From Competibacteraceae bacterium UBA2788 (lineage in GTDB: Bacteria; Pseudomonadota; Gammaproteobacteria; Competibacterales; Competibacteraceae), in assembly GCA_002352185.1 (NCBI GenBank), contig DEHY01000233.1, positions 1 to 17,021 of the forward strand: a stretch of 17,021 nt of DNA. The letters run 5' to 3'. Under the pieces are notes generated by a model that ran no database searches, was not told where the DNA came from, and saw nothing but the letters and a program-made list of their open reading frames with translations. The number at the start of each line of letters is the position of its first letter. Within the stretch, counting starts at the first letter, position 1. Positions 14,973 to 17,021 of the stretch are shown in pieces. The translations under genes were made by a program, and so were the position numbers.

Positions 14973-17021
14973 TCAGGATCGGGAGCGAACGAGCACCCTG
15001 GAGCGCTTGCGCGCCGGCGCGGTCGTCACATCGGTCAGCCGCACCGTCCCCACTGCGCCGATGCCCGCCTTGCGTCCAGCCTCGGTCAGATACACCCGCC
15101 AGAAGGCGATGATTTTGCCATCGCGGCTAAAGGCGTCTTCCCGCATCTCGATCAGCCCGGCCCCGGCCAGCCCTTCCAGCAACCGCTCGAAGGTTCGCCG
15201 GTCCTTCTGGCCTGCCGCCAGCCGTTCATGCAACTGGCGCGGGGTCTGGCCTTCGCGCCCATTCAAGGTCTCCAGCACCTGCAAGGCCAGCCGGGATTCG
15301 GCGGCGTTGAGCCGCCGCACCCGCCGCGCCGCCGTGGTTTGCGGCGCGCATACGTCGCAAATTCCGCAAGGCTGATCGTCGTCGCGGTCGCCGAAATGCC
15401 GCACCAGCCGCACCATCCGGCAACCGCTGGCTTTATCGGCGAACTCCAGCATTTGCTGGGATTCCCGCAGCTTGTGAGCGCTTTGCTGTTCGTAGGGCTG
15501 CCGCCAGCCATTCCCGCCCCGGCAGACGTTGCCCTCGCCATCGCGCCGGGCGCCGCCATGCACCAGCAGTTTTTCCATAGCGACGTCGAACACCTCCGGA
15601 TCCATGCCGAGATCGTCGCGCAGCGCCGCCCTGGGCAGGGAGTCGGCGCTCAGGGCTTGGAAGATACAGGCTAAATGGATTGGATCGGGATAGTCGCGCC
15701 GATGAAAAAACTCATGAAGTTTCAAGTCAACGTAGGAATACAGAAGAATGGCGCGGGCGGGCTGGCCATCGCGTCCGGCCCGCCCGATTTCCTGGTAATA
15801 GCCCTCGACGCTGCCCGGCAGCGCGGTATGAATCACGGTGCGGATATCGGCCTTGTCGATGCCCATGCCAAAGGCAATCGTGGCCACAATCACCGCCAGT
15901 TCTCCGGCGCTGAATTGGTTTTGCACCCGTTCGCGCTCCGGCGGCATCATCCCGGCGTGGTAGGCGGCGCTCGGATAATCCGCCGCCAGCGTCAGCGCCA
16001 GCGCCTCGGTTTCCTTGCGGGTCGGCGCATACACAATCGCCGGTCGCCGCTCCGGATCGGCCAGAATCCGCTGGATGGCGGCATGACGATCCGCCATCCG
16101 CGTTTCCACCGTCTCGACCGCCAGATTGGCGCGGCGGAAGCCGTGAATGTAGCGGGTAACCTCGGCCAGATCCAGTTGCCCGATGATGTCGTCCTGCACC
16201 TGGGTAGTCGCAGTCGCGGTCAGGGCGATCACCGGCGTGGGCCGCAGCAGCGGCAGGCGCGCTCCCAGCAGCCGATAATCCGGGCGAAAATCGTGACCCC
16301 ACTGGGAAATGCAGTGCGCTTCGTCCACCGCGATCAGGATCGGCTTGCGCTTGGCCAGCATTTCGGGAAAACCGGGCACGCTGAGCCGCTCCGGGGCGAT
16401 AAACAGGTAGTCCAGCTGGCCTTGCAAATACTCGACGCAGACCTGGCGCGAGGTCGCCCGATCCCGCCCGGAATGAATCCGCTCGGCGCGCAAACCGAGT
16501 TCACACAGCTTGGCGACCTGATCCTCCATCAACGCGATCAGCGGCGATACCACCAGGGTCGTCCCGGCGCGGGCGATGCCGGGCAGTTGAAAGCACAGCG
16601 ACTTACCGGCTCCCGTCGGCATCACCAGCAGTACATCCCGGCCTTCGGTCACGGTTCGGCATACCTGCTCCTGATAGGGCCGGAATCCGGGCAGCCGGAA
16701 CACCGTCCGCAACAATTCCTCCAATTGATCCACCGGCACCGGTTCCCGCCGGGGCGCGACCTCAATCACAGGCGTGGGATTGCTCTTCGTCGCCGGCGGG
16801 TCGAGAGCCACCGTTGGCGCCGCTGCGAACGCCTGGGTCACCGCTTCGCGGACATAACCGCCGATGTCCGCCATGAATCCGGTTAAATCGGCCTCGCCCC
16901 GCTGGATGCGTTTCAGCCGCGCCTCCCACTCCCCGGTCATCGCTGCACTCTTGATCGGTGGCTGCACCATTTGAATCAAGCGGATGCCGCGTTCGGTGGC
17001 GATCAGGCTCTTGCCGTCGCG
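14973..17021 (-). CDS. recQ: RecQ helicase fused to the C-terminus of topoisomerase III; 5' end outside the window
   Basis: Residues are counted from the first in-window codon (17021-17019). Residues 1-60 are not RecQ: GKSLIATERGIRLI, then PPIKSAAMTGEWEARL and FMADIGGYVREAV, the pattern ending bacterial TopB (topoisomerase III). After a Pro-rich linker (about 65-98) comes a full RecQ core. It has GFRPYQEQV (motif 0, about 112-120), Walker A MPTGAGKS (134-141), DEAHCISQWGHDFRPDY (233-249), LTATAT, VATIAFGMGIDK and QEIGRAGRDG (410-419). The zinc Cys are C534, C552, C555 and C558, and a winged-helix-like C-terminus (about 570-655) follows. HRDC was not seen. The frame has no stop through the window edge; the first in-window start-like codon in this frame is a TTG at 16979, well inside the TopB-like part. 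The 682 residues here should be the tail of a protein of some 1,300 residues or more. RecQ and TopoIII act together in resolving recombination intermediates, so fusion is functionally sensible. Confidence 0.88.
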   Translation of the reverse strand, partial: RDGKSLIATERGIRLIQMVQPPIKSAAMTGEWEARLKRIQRGEADLTGFMADIGGYVREAVTQAFAAAPTVALDPPATKSNPTPVIEVAPRREPVPVDQLEELLRTVFRLPGFRPYQEQVCRTVTEGRDVLLVMPTGAGKSLCFQLPGIARAGTTLVVSPLIALMEDQVAKLCELGLRAERIHSGRDRATSRQVCVEYLQGQLDYLFIAPERLSVPGFPEMLAKRKPILIAVDEAHCISQWGHDFRPDYRLLGARLPLLRPTPVIALTATATTQVQDDIIGQLDLAEVTRYIHGFRRANLAVETVETRMADRHAAIQRILADPERRPAIVYAPTRKETEALALTLAADYPSAAYHAGMMPPERERVQNQFSAGELAVIVATIAFGMGIDKADIRTVIHTALPGSVEGYYQEIGRAGRDGQPARAILLYSYVDLKLHEFFHRRDYPDPIHLACIFQALSADSLPRAALRDDLGMDPEVFDVAMEKLLVHGGARRDGEGNVCRGGNGWRQPYEQQSAHKLRESQQMLEFADKASGCRMVRLVRHFGDRDDDQPCGICDVCAPQTTAARRVRRLNAAESRLALQVLETLNGREGQTPRQLHERLAAGQKDRRTFERLLEGLAGAGLIEMREDAFSRDGKIIAFWRVYLTEAGRKAGIGAVGTVRLTDVTTAPARKRSRVLVRSRS

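Follow-up and report, generated by a model that had tools for sequence, protein, structure and literature searches.

The analysed stretch of DNA (hereafter the window) is an entire contig, C194, of 17,021 bases, from a 3.2-Mb draft genome of 234 contigs, and its minus-strand frame at 14973..17021 holds the 3' part of a gene in which topB and recQ are fused. The fusion is genuine: the initial annotation had placed topoisomerase III (Topo III) and RecQ in one reading frame, an observation that is now confirmed, and its interpretation of this frame is supported. The complete gene, of 1,273 codons plus the stop, probably encodes a natural single-chain RecQ-Topo III "dissolvasome", in which the two enzymes would act jointly.

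Regarding the frame in the window, it has 682 codons, corresponding to residues 592-1273 of the product and the stop, and it runs off the contig end, as had been noted for its RecQ part. The 5' part was located on another contig of this genome, C87 (locus L004, 8242-10037), through an in-frame overlap: comparison of the 3' end of C87 with the reverse complement of the window gave exactly 23 bases in common (16999..17021), across which the frame is kept. No stop or start codon closes the frame just beyond base 17021, and in the joined sequence an ATG lies 591 codons ahead of the first codon of the window. The search upstream that the initial annotation had proposed found the TOPRIM and Topoisom_bac domains and the catalytic tyrosine (Y349) in this same frame. 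Within the whole genome, a search with the Topoisom_bac profile identified three places, namely a TopA-like gene on contig C222 (794 aa), the end of C87 and the start of the window frame; the C87 TopB stops at the last bases of its contig and covers positions 4-365 of the profile, and the first bases of the window frame cover positions 360-410. A database protein, P0002 (1,103 aa, from a 7,446-base contig), is practically identical and runs across the TopB-RecQ junction; just before the 23-base overlap it has Gln where the genome of the window has Arg, and such a strain difference may be what broke the assembly at this point.

The window frame by itself already contains the C-terminus of TopB, in agreement with the topoisomerase likeness claimed ahead of the helicase core. 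Its residues 2-82 match the model NF005829, "DNA topoisomerase 3" (positions 534-614 of 669, E 2.9e-11), and two further Topo III models match residues 2-68 and 1-64, so that the first 60 residues are topoisomerase-like; the three TopB C-terminal motifs first read by eye are present as ATERGIRLI, MTGEWEARLKRIQRG and FMADIGGYVRE. The remainder of the frame matches RecQ models, with 374.3 bits for TIGR00614 against a cut-off of 219.8. A stand-alone RecQ starting at the TTG at 16979 was considered and rejected as needless, since TopB-like residues flank this codon and 591 more residues lie further upstream; the frame may have an extra internal start. As for an artefact of contig joining or assembly, the junction region does sit at two contig ends joined through a 23-bp overlap; the presence of the TopB C-terminus in the window, and a junction unbroken within one frame in P0002, in 28 other genomes of the family and in complete genomes of Sorangium and Nannocystis, leave this explanation a negligible probability, and it was rejected. 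The same overlap, P0002 and the many relatives with the junction in one frame bear out the single-frame fusion.

The joined protein begins with a complete Topo III (residues 1-655), to which a flexible linker of some 35 residues attaches a complete catalytic core of RecQ with the helicase, a zinc site and a predicted winged helix. Pfam recognized Toprim (41.1 bits) and Topoisom_bac (336.2 bits), both above the cut-off, followed by DEAD, Helicase_C and RecQ_Zn_bind, and found no other domain. The features that follow are on the minus strand of the window. The C-terminal end of Topo III (residues 592-655) is at 16830..17021, with a boundary defined by Topoisom_bac up to residue 641, by the alignment with Escherichia coli TopB up to residue 655, and by NF005829 and TIGR01056. 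The linker (about residues 656-690, 16725..16829) has low confidence in the predicted structure (pLDDT <50 at 661-678) and evolves fast, with identities among close kin from 13/31 to 26/35; its length varies from about 19 to 375 residues, with a median of 41, among 277 fused proteins of a redundant set. Then, alignment and Pfam place lobe 1 of RecQ (DEAD, residues 705-867, with the Walker A K731 and the DEAH box at 824-827) at 16194..16682, and lobe 2 (Helicase_C, residues 906-1010, with R1005 and R1008) at 15765..16079. Lobe 2 is separated from the zinc site by an insert at 15519..15683, made of three helices plus a short beta hairpin; motif VI and the first zinc-binding cysteine are 114 residues apart, versus 48 in E. 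coli RecQ. The zinc-binding domain (residues 1101-1149, with Cys 1125, 1143, 1146 and 1149) is at 15348..15494, and the predicted winged-helix domain covers frame residues 573-645 (15087..15305).

HRDC is common in the RecQ family, and it is not universal. After the winged helix, neither Pfam nor a home-made HRDC profile found this domain in the protein of the window, so that this part of the initial description of the RecQ tail stands; if that description meant that the winged helix was missing as well, this part does not, since the domain is predicted here. The structural model that covers both modules, made on P0002 (1,103 aa), has a pTM of 0.53 and a disordered linker, hence no interface between the modules is predicted.

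The Topo III half, with its TOPRIM and Topoisom_bac domains, retains most of the residues of the active site. The catalytic tyrosine and the arginine that follows, Y349 and R351, which we take to be the equivalents of Y328 and R330 of E. coli TopB, are kept in 277/277 fused proteins in the alignment; this set is redundant, with 206 database proteins and 71 others, and some genes are present twice. In the same set, the equivalents of E7, K8, D103, E107, Y328 and R330 (E. coli numbering) are conserved in 276-277 of the 277 proteins, as are the Walker A, the DEAH box, the two arginines and the four cysteines of RecQ. The DxDxE triad of E. coli is incomplete: the fusion reads D104-A-G106-R-E108, and the second Asp is Gly in all 277 proteins. 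This glycine does not define the fusion family because it also occurs in 5 of 10 stand-alone TopB proteins other than that of E. coli (L123, L110, L118, L014 and L128), Listeria and Clostridia included. The RecQ half has both helicase lobes, Walker A, DEAH and the zinc-binding domain, along with the winged helix of the RecQ family as a predicted domain; its score for the RecQ equivalog TIGR01389 is 428.3 bits, below the threshold of 640.2.

Compared with the E. coli enzymes, which are separate proteins, as the initial annotation had stated, encoded by two genes far apart, the Topo III half has 226 identities over 591 aligned residues with TopB, catalytic tyrosine included, and the RecQ half 181 over 431 with RecQ; the differences are the change of Asp105 into Gly, the HRDC domain, which was not found in the fusion, and the insert ahead of the zinc site. 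In a Listeria monocytogenes record (L123, 2480-6429), recQ and then topB are on one strand, 23 bases apart, and encode two separate proteins in the order opposite to that of the fusion, an adjacency that hints at a functional link outside E. coli.

The occurrence of the fusion in the family of the window was defined from 39 genomes by means of the topB model TIGR01056 and the recQ model TIGR00614, the latter at E ≤ 1e-40. Matches of both were in one open frame in 29 genomes, a count made of 27 with a long TopB match (G034 among those scored as fusion, with its RecQ end cut) plus G024 and the genome of the window, in which only the TopB end is on the contig of RecQ. As for the others, four (G002, G007, G012 and G032) lacked a RecQ match at the limits used, and their topoisomerase matches were all TopA-like; G015 and G031 gave fragments; G019 had a RecQ fragment located at a contig edge in addition to two TopB proteins that stand alone; G021 and G022 had a stand-alone RecQ and no TopB; and G023 had both proteins, separate. 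No fusion genome among the 29 gave a stand-alone match that spans the entire recQ_fam model (1-468 of 470); such a match occurred in G021, G022 and G023, all devoid of the fusion. Similarly, besides the split genes of G024 and of the genome of the window, a search for another TopB in the 29 genomes gave only TopA-like matches and one piece at a contig edge. From these profile searches, the fusion appears to take the place of canonical RecQ and TopB as separate proteins in this family, which is part of the reading we prefer. Some other RecQ-like match is present in 13 of the 29, including the genome of the window, where contig C165 (2323-3375; L006 502-2628, minus strand) encodes a second RecQ-like protein of 708 aa. 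The C-terminal part of this protein looks like a phosphoribosyltransferase, as in RqlH of Mycobacterium smegmatis, whose domain make-up we take to be of this type. RqlH of M. smegmatis is named in the reference list of PMC5512222.

In the protein database, the search with the joined protein gave 7,966 matches, and all 120 of those listed carry Topoisom_bac, PF00270 and PF00271; the same held for 120 of 120 listed among the 4,697 matches of P0115, a protein near the named Thermoanaerobaculia ones. Where named, the matches listed for the joined protein are usually called "DNA topoisomerase 3", and where assigned to an organism they come mostly from Competibacteraceae (Candidatus Contendobacter, Competibacter) or Thermoanaerobaculia, with single ones from Phycisphaerales or Gammaproteobacteria. 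Class-wide, the fusion was found in 3 of 114 genomes: that of the window, G026 from the same family, and G094 from another family, in which the match begins only at profile position 94. The fusion, part of a layout first described as unusual, is patchy rather than rare.

A further set of 80 loci from named genomes, drawn from 582 relatives and thus a sample rather than a census, contained the Topo tyrosine and RecQ DEAH motifs in one frame in 52 cases. Four more (L069, L082, L097 and L111) show the RecQ motif within a long frame but escape the Topo regular expression, and in three loci of named metagenome-assembled genomes (MAGs; L073, L077 and L084) the two motifs are in different frames of the same strand, possibly from frameshifts or natural re-splitting of the fusion. 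Eight loci are cut by contig ends, the frame of L075 ends early at a stop, and 12 are stand-alone TopB of Bacillota. According to record titles and NCBI ranks, the fusion occurs in at least six phyla: Pseudomonadota (Competibacteraceae), Acidobacteriota, Myxococcota, Bdellovibrionota, Planctomycetota and Thermodesulfobacteriota (a Geobacter MAG), the last two represented by single MAGs, for which contamination is possible. Complete or near-complete isolate genomes with the fusion are those of Sorangium cellulosum So0157-2 and So ce26, Nannocystis poenicansa and N. exedens. When 16 fusion genomes from other groups were searched with the Topo half (E ≤ 1e-60), the only other match was in G162 (884 aa), and further RecQ-like matches were present in 12 of the 16. 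Among plasmids, a tblastn search with P0001 gave no single place covering 80% of the query in the best 5,000 records; the top two matches are L. monocytogenes records that cover 77%, of which H2 has two separate genes.

Regarding HRDC, its absence is no trait of the fusion family in general: the domain was found in 25/25 Acidobacteriota loci, 12/22 Myxococcota loci and many fused proteins from the databases. In the family of the window, the domain was not found in the complete frames L124, L043 and L044, and PF00570 does not appear in the precomputed Pfam lists of P0001-P0083; the HRDC profile also gave 0/19 in family f1, a count that is mostly uninformative because these loci end 1,500 bases past the TopB match. 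The home-made profile was positive for E. coli RecQ, L123, L156 and L157, and negative for L006 and for L154, a cut locus.

As for the history of the fusion, the tree built from 58 Topo sequences groups the 35 fused TopB halves in a single clade (SH-aLRT 100), located in the part of the tree with the TopB of Clostridia and Listeria and apart from that of E. coli. In the RecQ tree, of 69 sequences, the 35 fused halves are again in one clade (100), together with a single stand-alone protein, L157, from contig C34 of a Pseudobacteriovorax genome (G162) that also carries a fusion; L157 may be either a copy set free from a fusion or kin to the RecQ that preceded it. The clustering of the fused halves in both trees makes one origin likely, with later descent and transfer, within the limits of a quick method with SH-aLRT support only, run on 35 fused rows chosen from 61 (thinned from 74), with long branches and odd letter composition flagged. 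Both halves show purifying selection as estimated from codon comparisons: the dN/dS (NG86) was 0.09-0.20 in both, against 0.19-0.55 in the linker, for the eight relatives computed out of nine tried (L026 had no frame of the wanted length), several of which were loci without the tail.

On these grounds, the single-chain dissolvasome is the preferred reading. The RecQ motor would unwind or branch-migrate joined DNA, and the single strands exposed in this way would be cut, passed and resealed by the gate of the tethered Topo III; the targets, unlinked without crossover, would be double Holliday junctions, precatenanes and replication forks that converge. As the initial annotation had proposed, one polypeptide fixes the stoichiometry of RecQ and Topo III, here a constitutive one-to-one ratio, and it would couple strand opening to strand passage by delivering Topo III to the strands opened by RecQ. 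The glycine in the triad, the lack of a predicted interface and the other RecQ-like genes that exist beside the fusion speak against this reading, and so do the report on E. coli in PMC13244152 and the four family genomes with neither a RecQ match nor a TopB other than TopA-like ones at the limits used. Pairing of a RecQ helicase with a Topo III is shared with the BLM/Sgs1-Top3-Rmi1 dissolvasome; the eukaryotic system is a multiprotein complex with RMI partners, according to the text available of PMC4109787 and PMC8191776, and the fusion physically joins the two in one open frame, as one chain with the topoisomerase first. A more far-reaching version is tentative, and we would sooner doubt than accept it: an ancient single-chain dissolvasome of bacteria, formed once and now present in six or more phyla, whose RecQ part, by hydrolysing ATP, would directly drive and gate strand passage by Topo III and make unlinking one-way, with no need of an RMI-like partner.

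A simpler view is that the halves are merely tethered, with Topo III working at replication forks and RecQ in repair, so that the fusion would set only their amounts and location. The unconserved, disordered linker and a model without a confident interface are consistent with it, as is the assignment of the E. coli pair to different pathways in the accessible text of PMC13244152 and PMC7140829; nevertheless, one fusion in one order has been retained across at least six phyla, a whole-model stand-alone RecQ is absent in 29/29 fusion genomes of the family, and the in vitro stimulation of Topo III by E. coli RecQ is cited in the consulted part of PMC7140829, which together make mere tethering unlikely. 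The matches of the two halves, to models of Topo III and of RecQ, weigh against an ATP-driven supercoiling enzyme working like reverse gyrase. In the latter, the helicase-like part precedes the topoisomerase, the opposite of the fusion, in which Topo III precedes RecQ with its zinc and predicted winged-helix domains; in addition, no hyperthermophile is known to us among the carriers identified through record titles, and this explanation is thus very improbable. What it has in its favor is that reverse gyrase likewise combines a type IA topoisomerase and an SF2-related ATPase of helicase type in one polypeptide, as reported in the text available of PMC8185306.

The dissolvasome reading bears on a question that is disputed in bacteria. 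In the accessible text of PMC7140829, RecQ homologues turn recombination intermediates into hemicatenanes, which only a type IA enzyme resolves. A 2026 report on E. coli, as far as its available text goes, finds that RecQ and Topo III do not interact and that RecG, not RecQ, works with Topo III (PMC13244152), whereas the part consulted of a review counts E. coli Topo III among the enzymes able to complex with RecQ (PMC8191776). A 2014 review, in its available text, left open whether the catalytic domains of RecQ and the topoisomerase touch during dissolution (PMC4109787). No description of a Topo III-RecQ fusion was found in the full-text literature searched, a body of text that excludes most subscription journals, preprints and supplements; RecQ and helicases do not appear in the main text of a survey of the C-terminal domains of Topo IA enzymes (PMC9369019), nor does RecQ in the text available of a 2024 review of these enzymes (PMC10969213). 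The fused proteins are already public in the databases, under automatic names such as "DNA topoisomerase 3". Two enzymes that are separate in E. coli and in human cells are thus one protein here and in distant bacterial groups; a natural fusion conserved for so long says that both functions are linked in these bacteria, and it offers a one-protein system for direct tests of coupling, present also in culturable myxobacteria.

Finally, other frames of the window, all on the minus strand, deserve a mention. The frame at 14248-14973, which we take to encode a protein like methionine sulfoxide reductase A, has its listed start at 14937, 35 bases downstream of the stop of the fusion, and by this proximity on the same strand it may be co-transcribed with it. 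At 2382-3267, a single gene seems to be broken by a frameshift into two overlapping frames (2382-3080 and 2908-3267); it is presumably of the transposase-associated Rpn/PD-(D/E)XK kind. The 581-aa protein encoded at 6150-7895 resembles the outer-membrane transporters for two-partner secretion, presumably those of the FhaC/ShlB type.
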